Source: Astropecten irregularis
Taxonomy: Eukaryota; Echinodermata; Asteroidea; Paxillosida; Astropectinidae
Length of the DNA: 64,000 nt
Assembly: GCA_963971285.1 (NCBI GenBank)
Contig: OZ020250.1
Coordinates: 14,492,499 to 14,556,498, forward strand
Direction: 5' to 3'
The stretch's first letter is position 1. Each line of letters begins with the position of its first letter. Made by a program: the position numbers and the translations under genes. The notes under the pieces were generated by a model. The model did not search any database. It was not told the DNA's origin and worked only from the letters and a program-made list of their open reading frames with translations. Below are positions 218 through 10,935 of this stretch, piece after piece.

Positions 218-456
218 TGTTTCATTCTTTTTTTTTTAATAAGCAGGAGAGAATTGTTGTTACATAAATGCTTTCCTGAACTTTTGAGTGTCATTTGTTT
301 CTTAAAAAAACATCATCAATCCCGTCAACTTCTTTTTGACTCGCCCTGTAGATGTTCGTTGGATTGTGGCTGGGTGGTTGGGTGTTGAATAAATGGTAAT
401 AGTTTTCGGTTTGTTGTTTGTGGTGTCCGACTGCTGCACTAACTACTTTATAAGCT
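218..456. other. Short spacer, no gene seen
   Basis: AT-rich unique-looking sequence between the edge fold-back element and the hairpin repeat that hosts the CACTA insertion. I see no coding signal. Confidence 0.5.
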
Positions 457-498
457 GCAAATTAGACTTGCCCTTCACCGACGTGGATGAGCACTGTA
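457..498 (+). repeat. Left half of a hairpin repeat split by the CACTA transposon
   Basis: The stretch containing CTTGCCCTTCACCGACG matches 38284-38325 almost base for base, and its reverse complement occurs at 10490-10531. It is one arm of a fold-back repeat that was interrupted when the transposon landed. TA at 497-498 is the left target duplication. Confidence 0.8.
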
Positions 499-514
499 CA
501 CTCTTAAAAAAATT

Positions 515-960
515 GGTTAATATTTAACCAATTTTTTACCCAACGTTGGTCAAAATACCAACTGCAAACATTGTTGGGCTATGTTTACCAACCCCAGATG
601 GGTGATTTGTTTTAACCATCAAATAGGCAAATAATTTACCCAATTATTGGCTTCTTGTTTTCTACCCATAAGTTGGTTAATTTTATTTACCTAAAAATTG
701 GTCAAACCCGATTACCTAAAAATTGGTCAAACCCGGTTTACCTAATAATTGGTCAAATCCGGTTACCTAATAATTGGTCAAATCCGGTTACCTAATATGT
801 GGGCAAATGACATGTCACCAAATATTGGTCAAACTGCCCTTCCCATTTATTGGTCAATACCATATCGCCAACTATTGGTCAAATTCATTTACCCAACTAT
901 ATTTCCAACAATTATTGGTCAAATTTGTAGTAGGCCTATGATATAATTATTGGTCAATTG
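515..960 (+). repeat. Subterminal repeat array of the CACTA element
   Basis: The motif ATTGGTCAAA or a close variant occurs near 546, 697, 722, 748, 773, 824, 849, 874, 914 and 949, most often 25 bp apart. A worn copy (GTGGGCAAAT) fills the 798 slot. Bases 515-535 form a small AATTGGTTAA-type palindrome. In plant CACTA elements such subterminal repeats bind the accessory protein; that role here is inferred. The 65-residue ORF at 749-946 is only a by-product of the array. Confidence 0.8.
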
Positions 961-1410
961 TAGTTGTCCTCGTACAATATTTTTGTTGACCTTTGCAAAT
1001 TATCCAAGAACAAAATTCCTATCAGGTTGCCTCAAAACATCCCAATATTGTGATCAACTGCAGTTCAAATTATCACACATTCACCTAATAGAAGTAATAA
1101 GTTGCATTCTTTGAAATGAATGGGGATTAAATATAACAAATCAAATGTCAAGGAACAAGTTTTGAACAGAACAAAAGTTTATTGAAGCCATGGATTGGTC
1201 TAACTTCCACATAAAGTAATTACAATAACCTTCAAATCTTGATCTCAAAATGATGGAGATTGTTTAATTGGAAATGTTTAGTTAACCTTACAAAACTGTT
1301 TTTGTATATCAGAAATAATGGTACAAAGATATGTTATTTCTGAGAAACACATCAAACTTCTGTATAACTTCTATAATTTGCTGATTAAATCTCAGCTTGA
1401 CCATGTCAAA

Positions 1411-1800
1411 TTGCAAGATGACCTGTCCAAGCTTCATGAATGAGCATGCAAATGGGGAATGAGGTTTAATACCTCAAAATGCCAAGTTATGAGCATTTGT
1501 CCAAAATCATCATACTTCTATAACATCAACGACCATATCTTAAAACACACATCTCAAAAAAGAAATATCTAGGAGTCATCCTGTCTGACGACCTAAAATG
1601 GACTTCACATATCAATAATACCACAAAGAAAGCAAACGCAGTACTGCGACTCCTCCAAAGAAACCTACGATTCTGCCCTGAGCAATGCAAATGAACTGTA
1701 TATGCTGTACTGACTCGCTCGATTATGGAGTATACATGGAGCTTGTGTGTGGGATTCATTTCTTCAAAAAGAAATCAACAAAGTTATTTGGATCATAAGA
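1411..1800 (+). pseudogene. Degenerate non-LTR retrotransposon reverse transcriptase fragment
   Basis: Reading from 1411, the translation gives a recognisable C-terminal RT segment: LQDDLSKLHE, then a stop, then a W-x-M-x-FN-x-SKC block, then KKYLGVILSDDLKW, then HI and LLQRN. This order is typical of CR1/L2/Jockey-like reverse transcriptases just downstream of the catalytic palm. At least two in-frame stops, and no endonuclease or 5' part, show it is a dead fragment. It sits between the 3' end of the SAM gene and the transposon's left end, so it inserted into the CACTA element or an ancestor of it. Confidence 0.75.
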
Positions 1801-1927
1801 ACAAAAAAATATATATATATATTTAAATCTGTATGAAAATACATCTGCATGGCTTCTTCTTTTGCCTTTATAGAAACAAAAGTATATTTATAAAGAAAGA
1901 AATGTTTCCTTTGACAAAAGTAACGCT

Positions 1928-1933
1928 TTTATT
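1928..1933 (-). promoter_or_regulatory. Candidate polyadenylation signal of the SAM-domain gene
   Basis: AATAAA on the minus strand about 100 bases past the stop codon at 2034-2036. It is the nearest canonical hexamer downstream of the last exon. Confidence 0.5.
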
Positions 1934-2033
1934 TTAAAAGATGCAACACAGCAATTTAAAATGTCACAGCAAGACCTGGCAGATCATTTAGTACACACCA
2001 CAGAGAATGCCTACATTTTGTATATGTGGCAGG

Positions 2034-5000
2034 TTACACTGAAGATGAGTTGGATTGTATGGCCAACTGACGCTTCAAGAATGCCCTCATGTCTCTTACA
2101 ATTGGACGAGCAATACATGGAAGATCATAAACTACACACTGTAGAAATTCCCACACATTTTGTACCTGTGGCTGATAAGTCAAATTGAAGACATAATGAC
2201 ATTTGAATGCCAAGTCCACTGTCTTGATGAGTGATGGTGTCTGTATGGCATTGCGTTCCATTATAAGGAAGGACTGGGTCGGCATCAGCTGGTTTGTTGT
2301 GACCAGTGCCAAAATGTATGGTTGTGGCCTCTCTGACGATTTTATGGACTTTAGGTATTGCTCCATGTTGGTAACTGCCTATTAAAACAAAACAAAAATT
2401 CAGAATAGTATTAATGAGCTATAAAAAAAAGAGCAGTGACCCCAAATGTAGGAACATGACAGCAATTTGTGTATGGAAGCAAAAATGACAAAATGAATGG
2501 ACCGACTATTGTGTTAAAGCATATAAGAAAGAGGGAAAGTGATTGCCTTTAATATTGTCAGATAACTAGGCTTCATATGATGAATTGATTTGGTAACACA
2601 CTCCTGGTCATGAAACACAAAATAATTATTGAAGTGCATCTGTGTACGCATTCACTCCTTGACCTTGGGCCTCATGGTGAGTATAGTATTGACATAGTAT
2701 TGTTTTCAACACATCAATTTGCTATTAGTTATTATAATGGTGGGAAGCCGTGTCAGTCAGATAACAATATAAAAAAATATATACAAGTAGCAATTAATTT
2801 ATTAATTTAGTCAATAAATTGCTTCTTGTATTTTTTTGTATTTTCTATTAATTATTGTCATAACTAAAAGAACTGTAAGGGAATAATGCACTCATACCGG
2901 TTGCAAATCAATGAAGGACTCCATGTTGACAGCAAAACGTCCTCCTCTACGTCCACCCCTTGCTCTTCCACCCAGATGAACTGCTAGCAGATACAATGCT
3001 AAGTGACTCTTTTCATCTGAAAGAAAATGTGCAAAACCTTGACAAAAAAATGTACCAATATTATATAGTCTAGTCTGCCAAGCCAATTTGAGGGATGTAA
3101 GTTTCAAGCCAGTTTATTACTACCTTGAATCACAATTTACACAAGGAGGATTATTTTCAAAATACCTTTTCAGGATCAAAAGTCACTTAAACACTCAGCT
3201 GTTATGCTATATGTTTAAGTAAAAAATTTATGAATCGTCAAAATTGAGACTTACCAGTTGAGAGTGTTTTGTGGTCAAGCTGGGGCATGCCAATTAACTC
3301 CTTCCATGCTGAATTCATTACAGATGCATACAGAATTATGGCTTCACTCAGTTGCTCCCATTTCTCCAACAGCTTGTTAGCAGCATCACCATAGGGGCCC
3401 AGGTCAAAATCCTGCAGAATCTTTACATGAAATAATGGTTGAATATAATCACTGTGGTTAAAAAAAAACACATGATCCTATATTTTAATATTGTTCTTAC
3501 CAGAATTTAATACAATGAATTTAACAAGCAGCTTCCATTTTCTATGCAATCAAGTATTTTTGATTTATTATGAGGTATTTTGCCTCAGGCTATTTCAAAG
3601 GAAATGAGGACAAGTTATCCAGATCATGAGCAGAATAATGTGCATGATGTCCACTATACATGCCTTATGTCTGCATGTTGGTGGTGGTGTACGTGCTTTG
3701 TCTTTTTTGAGGGGGGAGGAAATAATTCCCATCACAGGAAAACTAAAAGAGCAGGGTGGGAGGCAAGTAAGATTCTTCTGCCTTCTCTCCCACCATTCAT
3801 TCTTTAAAAAACATAATCTTACCATGCTCGCATTCAAAATTCTTGGGTACTGCTGAAGAATGTCAGCTAGGGGTACCTTCTTCTCATGGACTAGCTCTTG
3901 ACGATGACCAGCAGTTTTGGCCATAAGATCCTTAACTTTGTATTCAGGTTCCTCGTTTTCTTGCAGCCAAGTTGTCATTAATGTAATGTCCTCTTCATCA
4001 TGTTGAGACCTCATGGGAGAATCTTCTAAAGACATATTGAGATTAAACAAATGACACAATTGAGAAACACAGATATAAAGCTCTTTAATCTAAGACAGCA
4101 GTACATCAAAGGCATTAATTATGACTTAACCCATAGTAGTGAAGGATTTGCATGTGCTGCACTTTTAAAGCATCTTTTTTATGCAGTTCATTTAAAAATG
4201 GAAAGAACTCTCATACATTCCAGTTTGCTTTCTGCAACTTATATCTGCATGCATGGACCGATGTACTTTATGACAATGGTTTCCTATTTTTTGTGTGCAA
4301 AACTCATTTGCAATTCATTCTTACACTATTGAGCAAAAACACACCTTTGTCAGAACACGCTGATTCTGTAGAGCTAGATGATGTATCTTTCAACATTGTC
4401 TTCCGTACATAACGTAATCGCTCCTCAAGGTACCCAGTGGCTGGACGCTTTGATCCTCCTTTTGTATACCATGCATCCTTTATAGTAGTTAGAAAGAGAC
4501 TGTCATTAGGTCAATGAATAAGCAAAATCACACAAATCACAGCAATTAACCTTGCACAAATTAAGTGCCACACAATTAATGATGTTGCTTGAGCATTGAC
4601 AGCCACAATCAAGCACTACTTTGAGAAGTTGAAGCTTTTACTTACATATCCAGTGCCTTCTGGGTCTTTCAAGAAGGGAAAGTCGTGTATGATGCTCTCT
4701 GCCAAAGCCTGCTTCTCGTAAGCACATGGTCTATTGGATAAAAGGTTACAATCAGTCATTTTTATTGAACCAACTTTTCAATTGAATTCTTCATCCTTTC
4801 GTGGGAGGAGGTGACAATTATATAAAATAAACAACAACTGATTTGTTACATTGGCACAGGCTATTATAGCAACATATATGAGAAAGTTGCACAAAGTTTG
4901 TTAAGTGATGGCCTGCGCTAAAGCTTACATCCAATCAGTTCAACACACAAGATCTACTTTACTTACTTCAAACCATAGTTGTTAATCAGATGCCCAACCA

Positions 5001-8000
5001 GAAGAGCCGTCATTTTGCATCGATATGTTTTTGTGAGACAGTTGTTTTTTTCTAGATGGGTGATGATGTCACGACCTCCCACTGTTGACTGCAGAATTGA
5101 TTTGGCATCCTGTAGAAAGAACAAGTAATTCATGCTTGATATTTTACATTTAAGATCACCATAATTATATCCATAAACTTATCAACACCCACACACATCA
5201 AACATGTAACTGACAACAGCTGTTATTGAGTGATGATCAGTACCCATGCAATCAAATTCAGTAAACCATAACATTGAATGAAGAGGGCTTGCTAGGCAAT
5301 GTTCAATAGTAATGCTCGTCAATTAACCTAAAGTCCACTTACAATTCCTGGCACTCTACGTTTCTTTGTTGGTGGCTGTGGTGTGCATAGTGATGATGAA
5401 GCCATGGATGATGACATGGAGTCAGCAGTGTCTGGCCTGGAACAAGGCATAAGAAAGGTTGGGCTACTTGATGCGTTGAGCACCTCATCTATGTCCAGAG
5501 TTGAGAAGGAATCCGCATGCCGCAATGTTGATTCTTCTTTCTCCTGCTGAAACTAAAAACGGAAATTCAATTGAAAAAAATAATAAAATTGTTATTTTTC
5601 ATAGATTAAGGAGTTCTAGGATGCTTTTCATGTAATTTCATCTTAAATGCAAATATCCTTTGAAATGTTTTTCATTCAGTTTCCGGTCAAGACTCTTTTA
5701 GAATTCCTGTGCAATACAAAGGATGCGAATAATAATAGCAGTTAAAATTATGTTTAAATTTTCAATAATTTTGTCGGAATGTAAACAAAGAAACAAATGG
5801 TCCATAGTGTTAGAATGAGCCCAAGAATCAAGCAATCCAGCATAGAATTTGAGAACATACATTTCTATAATTTTTTTTAAAGTACTTCAGCCAGTCTGTT
5901 TGTACGGTGCACATATAACCCAGTTAATATTATTAGCTGTTTTTTTTTCTACTCAGACAGACTTATGCATTCTTCATTTAAATTTCAGGCCAAATGTGAA
6001 TATAGTCAAAAGCACAACTAGTATGATGTCTCACCTAGTATGCTTCATCATGATAGCGATGATGACAATTGGTGAAGATGGTGATCTGGATAGGGGGATG
6101 GTGGGGTGGTGATGATGACAATGACGATGGGACGTTTAAACTAGGTTAAACCTCACAGCAATATAGATGGATGAATCAGCTTTACTGTGACATTGAGTCG
6201 TGTGATGAGGGCGATAGTCAAGTAACTCATGTGGTTGTTTCACACATATGTTGCTGCTCAACTCTTGTACAGTGTATGCATGGTAATGTCTGCAAAAACC
6301 AGTAACCTTCCATGGCTTCAACACTAAAAACAGTTGTTCTCTATAAACAACAATCTGCTGAATTTGACTGAACATTGGTCCTTCATCTGTCCAGCTTGTT
6401 AGAACCATACTATTGGGTTTCATTTGATAACCCTCTACCTCCGCTTTGCTTGCAAGTGCTATGAGAGAATCATCAGAACATTGCAGGGAAGCACAAATTG
6501 CAGAGCTCACATCATCATCCAGTGATGAAACTGGCACTGGGATCTGATACTGAATTTCAACACTGCTTTGAAGATCTCCCTTTGGAAGAAACAATCCACA
6601 TGAACTCTGAGCCTGTTGGTGTCTGGTTGCAACAGTCTTAGCAATGTTTTTGAAATTGTTACAAGCCTGTGCCCACTTCTTAAACTGACGGTGTTTGGCT
6701 TCAAAACGCATGCTTGAATACTGAACTAATGGCCCGAGGTATCGTATTGCTCTTGGATAATGCAACATAAAATGCTGCTTAGGGGTTAAATTGCGCTTAT
6801 GCACTTGTCTGAAGAGATCATGATGGTCTCGTATCAAATGCTTCAGGAAATATGTGGCAGCTCTTGAGATGCTTCTAGCCATGACAATTTTATATATATC
6901 CAGCAATAATAGGAATACCTCCCACACATCATTATTTTCCTTAACTTTGTCTCCAATGATCAGTGGCAAGTACAAAGCCAAGCATGTCATCTGGGAAGCC
7001 TTCTGACCACTAGGTCCTCCTGGGTTGCTCAAAGCTGAAAGCCTAATAGGACTGGGCTTATTTTTCTTGTCACAAACTCCATAGCTGAATGAATCTATTC
7101 TATTATTCAACTCATCTAGAGTAAAGCAGCCTTGTGAAATCAATGAGTTCACTGTCAGTTTTATCTCTAGTGGACAGACACCTTCCAGAAGGTCGTGCAT
7201 TACATCTGGTGCCAAGTTTTCGGTAACATGGTACCCACTGATTTGATTGAGAACAGGAACTCGTTTTATGCCAGTAGCACTGAGATCTCCTTTTGCAGCA
7301 TCATCTTCATAGTTCTCACGACTTCTAAGAAGATGGACATCTTCCACTACTTGTTTTACAATTACATCTTTTGAAGCCTTACAAAATCGGCAAGGATAGT
7401 TTGCTGAAAAGCTGCAAACATAGCCAAGCAGCTCATGCAGCCCCAAATTGTCACCAATAACCTGAAACAAAAGTGGATGTACTCTCACAGACGAGGTGCC
7501 ACATGCAATTTCCATATCACTGTTTTGCAGGCAATTAAGGTCTTTCACAATATGGGAAAGAACTGTGTCGATACCATACTTGGAAGTTATAGTTGTTTTG
7601 GCACAGGCCACCAGCAGAATATTGTTCAGTGATGCTTGACATTTAGAGGGGAGGCTGAGAACACTACTGTAAAAGCCACTAAGTTTATGAACTCCTTTTC
7701 GAGATCCAAGGGGATTTGCAGTTTCATACGAATCATTGTAGAGAACAATGGGCAGAGTAATAGAGCTAGAGTCTACATTGTCCTTTTCCTGAAAAAGTAG
7801 CCCATCACGATATGATTCTAAGATGTCACCATCCTCTGACTTTCCTACTTCCATAATTGAACGCATAACACCTTCTTGCTGCAAAAATCTCTTAAGAGAT
7901 TTGTCGATGGGGACATACTGATAGGTATCCTTGTGTTCAACTTGCATCACATGGCCAGTTTGTTTATTCATCTTTGTTGAGAATGATGTGCCAACAGTTT

Positions 8001-9372
8001 TTTCCACTGGACTTACCAAATCATAATTTTCTTTCAGAGTAGTATTTCTCTGATGCTGAGTTTGCAAATGCTTAAAACAGTTTCTCAGGTTGTCCACTAT
8101 TTGTTCCATGTCATCTAAAGCTCCTTCGGGGATGTTCAATAATTTCAATTTTGTGTTTGTTAAAGCCTTCTCCATAGCCTTTGAAACAGTTTGAAACAAC
8201 TCTTCAACTTCCCTAACCACATTCTGAACAAATGATGATGGAACTGAAGTACTCATCATTTTAAAAATGAATGCCTGAATGGATGATGCGATGTCAAGAA
8301 GAGGTTCATCATCTACCATTGAGTCAGAATTACAATCATGTCCATCTCCATCACTGTCCCTTTCATTCTCTGGATTTGCAATACCTGCTGCATCTTCAGT
8401 AACCCTGTATTCCTCATCTGTTTTAATGTGCTTAGTAAGTAGGTGTCTCTTGTATGATGATATATATGAAAATGTCTCAGAACATCCATCTTGAATACAG
8501 ATGATTTTGGCTTTTGTTGATGAAGACAACTGATGCACATACTTAAGGTGCTTGAATAAATGTGGGATTCCACCACCAACAATGGCTAAGCACTTAAAAC
8601 ATGTGTAGTTCATGGTTGAAGGCTTCTGGTCAATCAGTCAATATTTAACTTACATCTCTTTTCCAGCCATGAAGAAACTTCATGCGAACACCTATCTGGG
8701 GAATCAGTTCTGTAACTGTCTGCTCATTCAACAGGGCTAACGCCTCCACATCAATTTCATGCTCTGTCAACAAAATACAAAAATGAAATAAAAACATAAG
8801 CCTATCGGAATTGACCAAAGTTTATTATCCTACAACTTCAAAAATGGATAACTGCCCCATACTAACACATTAGTTTTGGATAGGCCTACATGTACATGTT
8901 ACCAGAGGCAAAGACATGATCTAGGCTAGACAACTGCATGTACAGATGAACATGCCAAAATAACCAGACATTTTGTAACATTTTAGGATAGTTTTAATGC
9001 ATGTTATGATGTACAGAACATGTATATGGCAAATAACCTGGATTTAACTTTGTTTTCGTAACTCATAAGGCCTGTCCGTTGTTATTAATACACTGCAATG
9101 TACTTATAGGCCTATGTGCTCTTTTAATCATTATGTTTTGACTTGACAAGGCGACACAGGCCTGTTGATGTGTATGATTATGGCGTGCATGGGGTGAGTG
9201 TGCTGCCCCACATTGTGGCCTCCACTCTCAAGCTCAACTCATTGTTCAGTTTAAAAGTTTGCGGCTTACCTTCAAACAACCCTACCAACTGCTCCACTCC
9301 CCACTTCTTCAAGTAATCGTGAACACCTTCATCATGCTTTCCCCCTTCTGCTAATTCTTCGAGCAACTCCAT
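2034..9372 (-). CDS. SAM-domain (SAMD3-like) protein, 10 exons, 533 aa, encoded inside the CACTA element
   Basis: Minus-strand exons: 9372-9270, 8763-8654, 5546-5343, 5109-4967, 4730-4646, 4477-4345, 4025-3823, 3411-3255, 3016-2898, 2378-2034. All introns are GT-AG and the phases chain without a break to the stop, 1602 nt in all. Residues about 17-70 form a SAM domain (YLKKWGVEQLVGLFE joined across intron 1 to a helix ending PQIGVRMKFLHGWKR). Residues 72-139 are Ser-rich and acidic and end in KKRR (132-135), a likely nuclear localisation signal. The rest is a conserved-looking alpha-helical region with DAWYTKGG and GYLEERLRYVR blocks, like animal proteins named SAMD3-like. The start is the first ATG in the SAM exon, with G at +4; the upstream in-frame codons have no ATG. 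No enzyme motif is visible. Lying wholly within the transposon beside a transposase, it may be an accessory transposition factor; a captured host gene is the alternative. Confidence 0.85.
6136..8613 (-). CDS. Tnp2-like (En/Spm-CACTA) DDE transposase with N-terminal C2H2 fingers, 825 aa
   Basis: A single uninterrupted exon with a good start context (accATGa). Two C2H2-type fingers open the protein (Cys5, Cys8 with paired His near 23-27; Cys39, Cys44 with His57 and His62), followed by an acidic linker. The core has the order of Tnp2-family transposases: an Asp in LPIVLYNDSYE, a second Asp in VIGDNLGLHELLGY followed by the PCRFCKASK Cys pair, the hallmark APDVMHDLLEGV, and a late acidic residue in MRFEAKHRQFKKW. 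The C-terminal 130 residues are unassigned. The ORF lies entirely inside intron 2 of the SAM gene on the same strand, its ATG only 41 bases past that intron's 5' splice site, so intron retention or a separate start could produce it. Expected role: cutting and joining at the CAC/GTG ends in the nucleus. No frameshift or stop is seen, so it may be functional. Confidence 0.9.
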   Translation of the reverse strand: MNYTCFKCLAIVGGGIPHLFKHLKYVHQLSSSTKAKIICIQDGCSETFSYISSYKRHLLTKHIKTDEEYRVTEDAAGIANPENERDSDGDGHDCNSDSMVDDEPLLDIASSIQAFIFKMMSTSVPSSFVQNVVREVEELFQTVSKAMEKALTNTKLKLLNIPEGALDDMEQIVDNLRNCFKHLQTQHQRNTTLKENYDLVSPVEKTVGTSFSTKMNKQTGHVMQVEHKDTYQYVPIDKSLKRFLQQEGVMRSIMEVGKSEDGDILESYRDGLLFQEKDNVDSSSITLPIVLYNDSYETANPLGSRKGVHKLSGFYSSVLSLPSKCQASLNNILLVACAKTTITSKYGIDTVLSHIVKDLNCLQNSDMEIACGTSSVRVHPLLFQVIGDNLGLHELLGYVCSFSANYPCRFCKASKDVIVKQVVEDVHLLRSRENYEDDAAKGDLSATGIKRVPVLNQISGYHVTENLAPDVMHDLLEGVCPLEIKLTVNSLISQGCFTLDELNNRIDSFSYGVCDKKNKPSPIRLSALSNPGGPSGQKASQMTCLALYLPLIIGDKVKENNDVWEVFLLLLDIYKIVMARSISRAATYFLKHLIRDHHDLFRQVHKRNLTPKQHFMLHYPRAIRYLGPLVQYSSMRFEAKHRQFKKWAQACNNFKNIAKTVATRHQQAQSSCGLFLPKGDLQSSVEIQYQIPVPVSSLDDDVSSAICASLQCSDDSLIALASKAEVEGYQMKPNSMVLTSWTDEGPMFSQIQQIVVYREQLFLVLKPWKVTGFCRHYHAYTVQELSSNICVKQPHELLDYRPHHTTQCHSKADSSIYIAVRFNLV

Positions 9373-9520
9373 TCCGAACTCCAAGTCAAATCACGTTTAC
9401 CACTATTGAACTACTCGCATAGTAATGATGATACATGTAGTACAAACAAAATGACGACCCGCCGCCGTGCGCCTGGCCGTAGCAGCATACGCGCACACGC
9501 GCGTGTTAAGTACATGTGCT
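9373..9520 (-). promoter_or_regulatory. Probable 5' leader/promoter region of the transposon genes
   Basis: GC-rich stretch (about 9455-9510, with several CpG, including a CGCGCACACGCGCG-like run) just upstream of the SAM gene start in otherwise AT-rich DNA. No TATA box is placed with confidence. Confidence 0.35.
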
Positions 9521-10139
9521 AATCACCAATATTCTTGGTAATATAATACTAGCATGCTGAGCAAAAAAAGACCAACTATTTTATACATTTACTGGGTGAC
9601 GTCATAACCTTGTATAATTCACCAACTTAACAGATAAATAACGCTCCCAGGATGATAATTTCACCCATTTTATTGGTAGATACATTGGCTGCATGCCAAG
9701 TCCGCGCGCCATTGTATTTATTATAACACTGCATGTTGACATGCCAGTAAAAGTGAGGGTTGAGATTAATGACAACGGTTAGGCCTAGCCTATCTTGAAT
9801 AAGGGTTTTCTTTTCGTTTGATAATTTCCCTATACATAATTAAGTCGACAGTTTTGTACAAATAGTGTGCACAATGCAGTTTTGCATTCATTTTTTAATG
9901 CAGGCACTTCAGACCGGCTGGCCGGTTTTATTTTTCGAAAAATCATAAAATAATGACGTCATTCGTAAGCCGGGTCACTTGTGACATGTTGTCAAATCGG
10001 ACTTTTATTTATAGAGTACATGCAGACATGAAATGATTTTTGGCGCAGCAGATCTGAGACTGGGCTAAGCTCAAACTGAATTGAAATGTGCCTCTCAGCC
10101 TTGGTAAAATAAATGTGTAAAGGTAAAAATAATAATACG

Positions 10140-10440
10140 TCATTATTCAAGAGTTCACACAATCACCAACAACAATACACAGAACCCACATTATTGGGCA
10201 CTGAACCCAGATTCCTCTGACTCGATTGCCCAATTCTTAAGCAATATTTGCCAAACGCTGTTAGTCTTTAACAGAATCACAACTAATAGTGTAATTTTAC
10301 CCCAACATTTTGGTTAACTAAAAAATCCCAACATCAAGAACGATATCTGGTAAATATTAACCAACATTTACCATGATCCTTCACCAACTATTAGTATGTA
10401 CTGTAAACCCCAACTTTTTTTACCCAACGTTTTTACAGTG
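10140..10440. repeat. Right subterminal region of the CACTA element
   Basis: Scattered CCAAC(A)-centred motifs (for example CCCAACATTTTGG, AACCAACATTTACC, CACCAACTATT) and a terminal TTTACCCAACG that mirrors the TTTTACCCAACG at 534-545. The array is looser than the left arm. Confidence 0.6.
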
Positions 10441-10531
10441 TATACTCAGTGCTTGTGAGTGCACGTGCTCTCACAAGCACTGAGTATATAGTGCTCATCC
10501 TCGTCGGTGAAGGGCAAGTCTAATCTGCATA
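10441..10531 (-). repeat. Right half of the hairpin repeat split by the CACTA transposon
   Basis: 10441-10489 is a near-perfect palindrome (TATACTCAGTGCTTGTGAG and its complement). It is followed by the reverse complement of 457-498. Together with the left half this rebuilds one fold-back unit with the transposon sitting in its first arm. Confidence 0.75.
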
Positions 10532-10754
10532 TTAAAAAATTTCCCGACCAAAATAATTTAATACTTTATAAGCTATTTTTAAAAGGCATTTCTACACAAG
10601 CTTCGGCTTCTTGGCTTTGCCTCCATTTATAAGCCGACAATATGATTTTCAGTACAGTTGTCCTGTACAGAATGTTAAATAAGTGTAAATTGAAAAGAAA
10701 ATAGGATGGGTTGGGATGGTTATTTCGTCGGTCGATTGGTTTGCTACGGTTGGT

Positions 10755-10935
10755 AAAGTAAAAGAAGGTAGGTTTGCGGTGACACCATGTAATCTCTTCA
10801 GTGATAATGTGGTTCTGAGAAGCACCGTTTGTATTATCTATTACATATAAAGATAATACCAATGGTTCTTCTCAGAACCACACATTCTCACAGAAGAGAT
10901 CACATGGTGTCACCGCTAACCTACCTCCTTTTAGT
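10755..10935. repeat. Fold-back element (arms about 70 bp)
   Basis: Left arm (GGTAGGTTTGCGGTGACACC...GTGGTTCTGAGAAG) and right arm (CTTCTCAGAACCAC...GGTGTCACCGCTAACCTACC) are imperfect reverse complements around an AT-rich centre near 10845. It looks like a short non-autonomous element. Confidence 0.7.

Follow-up and report, generated by a model that had tools for sequence, protein, structure and literature searches.

A SAM-domain gene wrapped around a putative transposase gene in a CACTA/EnSpm-like DNA transposon

A nested design in which one transposon encodes two products is already known from maize Spm and Antirrhinum Tam1, with Schistosoma mansoni SmTRC1 as an animal precedent. In maize Spm, a 2.5-kb RNA of 11 exons is 100 times commoner and encodes the DNA-binding protein TNPA, which recognizes subterminal repeats of the element, and a 5.8-kb RNA that also contains the open reading frame (ORF) of intron 1 encodes the transposase (PMC2613891). 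The Tnp1 protein of Tam1 shows no sequence similarity to maize tnpA (PMC2613891). For SmTRC1, expressed sequence tags and reverse transcription PCR revealed in 2006 that most transcripts lack the transposase ORF, those that include it being rarer (PMC1636069). Here, we describe a DNA transposon in a 64-kb stretch of Astropecten irregularis contig OZ020250.1 (64,000 nucleotides, hereafter the window), in which a ten-exon SAM-domain gene carries a putative transposase gene within its second intron.

The ends of this element, its target site duplication, its two open coding regions, and the nesting of one region within the other are observed features (Table 1). Our reading of them is that the element is a structurally intact and probably autonomous transposon of the CACTA/EnSpm-Mirage-Chapaev-Transib (CMCT) clade, with a SAM partner wrapped around a DDE transposase on an En/Spm-like plan that includes the RNAs predicted below. 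To this reading as a whole, we give about even credence.

Boundaries and coding regions of the element

The element lies within a long, near-perfect palindrome resembling a miniature inverted-repeat transposable element (MITE; 447-503 and 10482-10538 with 10436-10493), which provides a built-in empty site. When the two flanks were joined minus one TA and compared with the intact palindrome arm, 71 of 78 nt were identical without a gap, the final few nt of this comparison being the palindrome centre. For the CMCT clade, 5'-CA..TG-3' termini and target duplications of 2 to 5 bp are described, with 3 bp taken as typical of EnSpm (PMC12730594). The termini found here (CACTC... and ...CAGTG) fit this expectation (CAC..GTG for EnSpm), and the TA duplication, at 2 bp, falls within the clade range and is not the 3 bp typical of EnSpm. 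Agreement between the inverted ends is limited to CACT(C/G)T(T)AAAAA and does not extend into a longer end-to-end repeat, compared with about 13 bp, nearly identical, for CACTA/EnSpm. Because the ends, the TA duplication, and the empty site enclose both genes, the SAM gene and the transposase are part of one transposon (499-10440), as the first-pass annotation of this DNA had proposed. Subterminal repeats, a CACTA/EnSpm trait, are also present. Specifically, the left 500 bp of the element contain 14 copies of TTGGTnAA (0.465 expected) and the right 500 bp contain four (0.19 expected), with no enrichment in the middle (three copies, 2.6 expected); of the 49 sites in the window, 18 fall in the two ends.

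Table 1. Features of the element and their positions in the window
Feature	Position	Strand	Remarks
Whole element, CMC/EnSpm-like DNA transposon	499..10440	coding strand minus	9942 bp; CACTC/CACTG ends, TA duplication, empty site
Target site duplication, left copy	497..498		TA
Target site duplication, right copy	10441..10442		TA
Left terminus	499..510	+	CACTCTTAAAAA; short imperfect inverted repeat of right end
Right terminus	10430..10440	-	CACTGTAAAAA; minus-strand reading, inward from 10440
Palindromic repeat interrupted by element	447..10538		arms 447-503 and 10482-10538; intact arm = empty site
Left subterminal region	513..957		14 TTGGTnAA sites, partly 25-bp tandem repeat (685-900)
Right subterminal region	10101..10387		4 TTGGTnAA sites
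SAM gene exon 1	9270..9372	-	start codon 9372
SAM gene exon 2	8654..8763	-	SAM domain match ends here
SAM gene intron 2	5553..8653	-	3101 nt; houses transposase
Putative transposase ORF	6136..8613	-	825 aa; two N-terminal C2H2-like fingers; D294, D388, C408/C411, H614/H618, E638
Donor G/GTGAG	6034..6035	-	intron would begin at 6034; downstream of transposase stop; possible junction with exon 3
SAM gene exon 3	5343..5552	-	alternative start 5546; KKRR resembling a nuclear localization signal
SAM gene exon 4	4967..5109	-	
SAM gene exon 5	4646..4730	-	
SAM gene exon 6	4345..4477	-	
SAM gene exon 7	3823..4025	-	
SAM gene exon 8	3255..3420	-	
SAM gene exon 9	2898..3016	-	RG-rich stretch
SAM gene exon 10	2034..2378	-	stop codon 2036-2034
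TATA-box-like site	9579..9585	-	upstream of exon 1, then TCAGC; acceptor-like site 9556 overlaps
AATAAA	1928..1933	-	101 nt past SAM stop

The ten predicted exons of the SAM gene (9372 to 2034, minus strand) fuse into one 538-codon frame, with GT..AG borders at all nine introns. Residues 12-66 of the 538-aa product match Pfam SAM_1 (E=9.3e-6; 26.4 bits, above the cut-off of 23), and this match spans the exon 1/2 junction. When splice sites were ranked with a generic weight matrix, the nine donors took ranks 1, 2, 3, 6, 8, 9, 13, 16, and 19 among the element's 584 GT sites, and the acceptors stood out less, with ranks between 1 and 162 among 591. Intron 2 is 3101 nt long and the other eight introns are 168-519 nt. 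The exon 2/3 junction proposed in the first-pass annotation, 8654 to 5546, is in phase and scores better than the other candidate start of exon 3 at 5552, which is equally in phase; exon 3 may begin at either position. The pooled codon usage of the ten exons is transposase-like (0.147 bits/codon under a model learnt from the transposase), and none of 20,000 sets of ten open stretches, taken at random from the 1245 outside the element, reached this value. With stops penalized and introns as background, the used frame is the best in all ten exons, a result that is partly circular. A PDB sequence search with the SAM protein returned weak matches (E 0.23 or worse), four of the five being SAM-domain proteins or tankyrase, and exon 10 had no NCBIfam match.

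The transposase ORF is intact and is the only ATG-started ORF of more than 180 codons listed in the window. It lies wholly within intron 2, on the same strand as the SAM gene, with 40 nt between the donor and its ATG, which begins at the 41st base after exon 2. Altogether, the in-frame exons, the borders of the nine introns, and the intact ORF bear out the earlier description of a ten-exon SAM gene housing an 825-codon transposase in intron 2, and the spacing agrees as well. Residues chosen by eye (D294, D388, C408-C411, H614-H618, and E638) give DDE, C(2)C, and H(3)H, ordered as a 2025 paper describes for the clade of CACTA/EnSpm, Mirage, Chapaev, and Transib (PMC12730594). This pattern counts as support for clade membership and not as proof of it. 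The spacings D2-C, C-H, and H-E are presumably RAG1-like, and we take several stretches of the protein to resemble fish EnSpm proteins; by such likeness, and following the first-pass annotation, the transposon is most likely that of an animal. For the transposase, NCBIfam gave no match, a PDB sequence search gave weak matches only (E 0.2 or worse, no transposase among them), and a single-sequence AlphaFold model was unusable (mean predicted local distance difference test score, 33.7).

Within the window, blastn revealed no second copy of the element, returning the element itself and one internal 31-bp inverted match. Similarly, tblastn of the transposase and the SAM protein recovered their own exons only; one row (residues 165-246, 49%) overruns exon 6 and belongs to the same gene. 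Ten further ORFs in the window were without a Pfam match at E 0.01. In viral contigs, a scan with the transposase gave no pattern match; a scan with the SAM protein found one stretch that fitted a pattern and encoded no relative, and four degenerate motif patterns likewise yielded none. At five viral loci picked by one motif pattern, tblastn of both proteins gave nothing better than E=2.6. Two patterns had 0 matches in prokaryote genomes, and tblastn of the transposase alone found nothing in phage and plasmid collections. The absence of relatives from viral, prokaryotic, and plasmid collections says little about animals.

Three further repeats or fragments were seen in and around the element. 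An inverted repeat with 41-nt arms, 98% complementary (1-41 and 176-216), forms another MITE-like hairpin, and one with 53-nt arms, 91% complementary (10759-10811 and 10881-10933), lies immediately to the right of the element. Within the transposon, plus-strand positions 1556-1790 look by eye like the end of a reverse transcriptase of a long interspersed nuclear element (LGVILSDDLKWTSHIN...) and are probably a retroelement fragment.

Expression signals and a proposed mode of action

Upstream of the SAM start codon, in 10440-9373, the TATAWAW motif occurs twice (10013 and 9585), compared with about 1.07 occurrences by chance. The site at 9556 is the element's second-best acceptor-like site and lies over the TATA/initiator-like arrangement, where it could be either the acceptor of a leader exon or part of a promoter. 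Two weaker donors, 10189 and 10371, still rank in the top 25 of the matrix scores. The interval from the transposase stop to exon 3 (6135-5553) contains no AATAAA or ATTAAA (1.7 expected), and the donor at 6034, fifth of the 584, is its sole GTRAG site. Since this interval combines the lack of a poly(A) signal with a good donor, it is weakly favoured that the transposase and SAM RNAs share their 3' end.

We propose that the fully spliced RNA would be the main product and would encode a nuclear, self-associating SAM protein. SAM domains are often self-association modules, and the domain together with the KKRR stretch would therefore fit a nuclear partner able to gather TTGGTnAA sites. Such a protein might play the part that TNPA has in maize: it would bind the subterminal TTGGTnAA sites or bridge them, unite the ends, and tune the promoter. 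A rarer RNA that retains 8613-6136 would encode the transposase, with donor 6034 spliced to exon 3 and its 3' end set by the shared AATAAA near 1933. Plain retention of intron 2 would not be the route to the transposase start codon; instead, the SAM start codon would be bypassed by a transcription start site or a leader splice.

A broader proposal, which we put forward tentatively and hold to be doubtful, is that an animal CACTA branch evolved a SAM partner independently of plant TNPA. The partner would self-assemble on subterminal sites, and because its transcript would enclose the transposase, splicing would keep the partner in large excess over the enzyme. Many "SAMD3-like" proteins are annotated in fish and invertebrates; if this proposal is true, some of them would be transposon proteins.

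Evidence against this reading and competing explanations

Several observations weigh against the reading of the element as a clade member that works on an En/Spm-like plan. For the transposase, the loose DDE/CC/HH signature also fits 116 of 2000 shuffled sequences, and no Pfam match was found below E=0.1, hence no Transposase_21. Two motifs of animal Transposase_21 elements are, by eye, only partly present. In animal CACTA-related TRC elements, these are [LVI]-D-x-[LM]-H-x3-L-G and a first motif with D-G and W-P (PMC1636069); the nearest stretch here, PDVMHDLLEG, fits D-x-M-H and G and not the flanking residues, and the D294 region is without D-G...W-P. For the SAM gene, the codon score is weaker exon by exon, each value being equalled by 1 to 156 of the 1245 stretches, and with stops unscored, the used frame is the best of six in only five of the ten exons. 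That the SAM protein binds DNA is a guess. For the RNAs, 9269-8614 holds no TATAWAW and 10440-9270 no GTRAG leader donor, the AATAAA at 1933 is not above chance (0.58 A[AT]TAAA expected in the 200 nt after the SAM stop), and the lack of AATAAA/ATTAAA in 6135-5553 is a weak argument, with P(0)=0.15. In addition, the first ORF of an RNA retaining intron 2 is a 73-codon SAM fragment that stops at 8645, leaving 31 nt to the transposase ATG, and many further ATGs lie upstream of that ATG.

The last point changes what can be claimed of the mechanism. Because coding exons 1-2 precede the transposase, plain intron retention would yield a bicistronic mRNA and not "transposase instead of SAM." The 73-codon ORF thus rules out a simple choice between SAM protein and transposase through retention. 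Given this ORF and the additional ATGs, efficient synthesis of the transposase would depend on reinitiation, on a start close to exon 2, or on a leader spliced past 9372. Consequently, of the En/Spm-like logic seen in the first-pass annotation, the likeness in anatomy stands, and retention alone as the switch does not.

The same upstream start codons, which would make a shared full-length RNA inefficient to translate, favor a quite plausible alternative that falls a little short of an even chance: two independent promoters, one upstream of 9372 for the SAM gene and a second one, within intron 1 or exon 2, for the transposase. The overlap would then be merely physical, and splicing would not choose the product. 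The transposase ORF, being complete, needs no splicing. Against this explanation stand, neither of them decisively, the lack of TATAWAW in 9269-8614 and the lack of AATAAA/ATTAAA from the transposase stop to exon 3, by which the 3' end at least may be shared. A variant of the nested plan, in which exon 2 is also spliced in frame into the transposase to give a SAM-transposase fusion without zinc fingers, appears very improbable; the acceptors at 8274 and 8223 have fairly good scores (2.4 and 3.1) and keep the phase of donor 8653, but each would do so by chance one time in three.

We consider it unlikely that the element captured the SAM gene whole from its host, or grew around it, which would make the gene a passenger with no role in transposition. 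Its ten exons with eight small introns (168-519 nt) are host-gene-like, and SAM domains are common in host proteins. However, the transposase sits inside the SAM gene and not beside it, its flanks in intron 2 have no common inverted 8-mer and so are not like those of a separately landed element, and both genes are intact with alike pooled codon usage, as for a long-standing pair, although this might also fit a recent capture. The converse, a normal host SAM gene with a transposon in its intron 2 and unrelated outer ends, would be compatible with nesting by itself, and yet we find it scarcely credible. The ends, the duplication, and the empty site lie at 499 and 10440, outside the SAM gene, the transposase ATG follows the donor after just 40 nt, and the ORF is not flanked by any inverted 8-mer within the intron. 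These three observations contradict the idea that a separate transposon sits in the second intron of a host gene, and this candidate was rejected.

Relation to known two-product elements

Searches of one open-access library for SAM together with transposase, CACTA, or EnSpm listed no paper on such an element among their matches. As far as these searches go, the new element of the design is the SAM-domain partner wrapped around the transposase. An "animal version" with an unrelated partner, as the first-pass annotation put it, would not by itself be novel, since SmTRC1 precedes it (PMC1636069) and Tnp1 of Tam1 is already unlike tnpA (PMC2613891); among the papers searched, none with a SAM partner turned up. 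Should the nested pair prove conserved, the logic of En/Spm, with one transcription unit, an abundant accessory protein, and a rare transposase, would have arisen in animals or been kept there around a very different partner protein, and what such a partner has to do could then be tested directly. Another consequence would be a warning that SAM-domain genes annotated as host genes may be transposon-owned.

Among the described elements, ESTA, which is fungal and EnSpm-like, has a TA duplication and a C(2)C/H(3-4)H motif, as here; families so named carry a TET/JBP gene, and the likeness is by features only (PMC12730594). Antirrhinum Tam1 and soybean Tgmt* have an equal two-product design with partners unlike tnpA, but they are plant elements, Tgmt* has a 3-bp duplication, and the available text names no SAM domain in them (PMC2613891). 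SmTRC1 resembles our element in being animal and CACTA-related, with 2-bp direct repeats reported for related elements (PMC1636069). It differs in its CCC termini, length of about 4.5 kb, and Transposase_21 domain, as opposed to CACTC/CACTG termini, 9.9 kb, and no Transposase_21 match here. For its partner proteins, the authors found no similarity in other elements (PMC1636069), whereas the partner here is a SAM protein.

As in En/Spm, the main ORF lies in a large intron of a multi-exon accessory gene, on the same strand and within one CACTA-type element that has subterminal repeats. Unlike in En/Spm, where the ORF is in intron 1, it is found here in predicted intron 2, after two coding exons, and the partner is a SAM protein. 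The leader exon of maize tnpA is non-coding, and hence there is no upstream-ORF problem in that element. Furthermore, En/Spm makes a 3-bp target duplication, compared with TA here. In the Spm TnpD RNA, two ORFs stand in tandem, and clone B4 of SmTRC1 joins the transposase ORF to 3' exons (PMC1636069); the weakly favoured shared 3' end of our element would resemble both.

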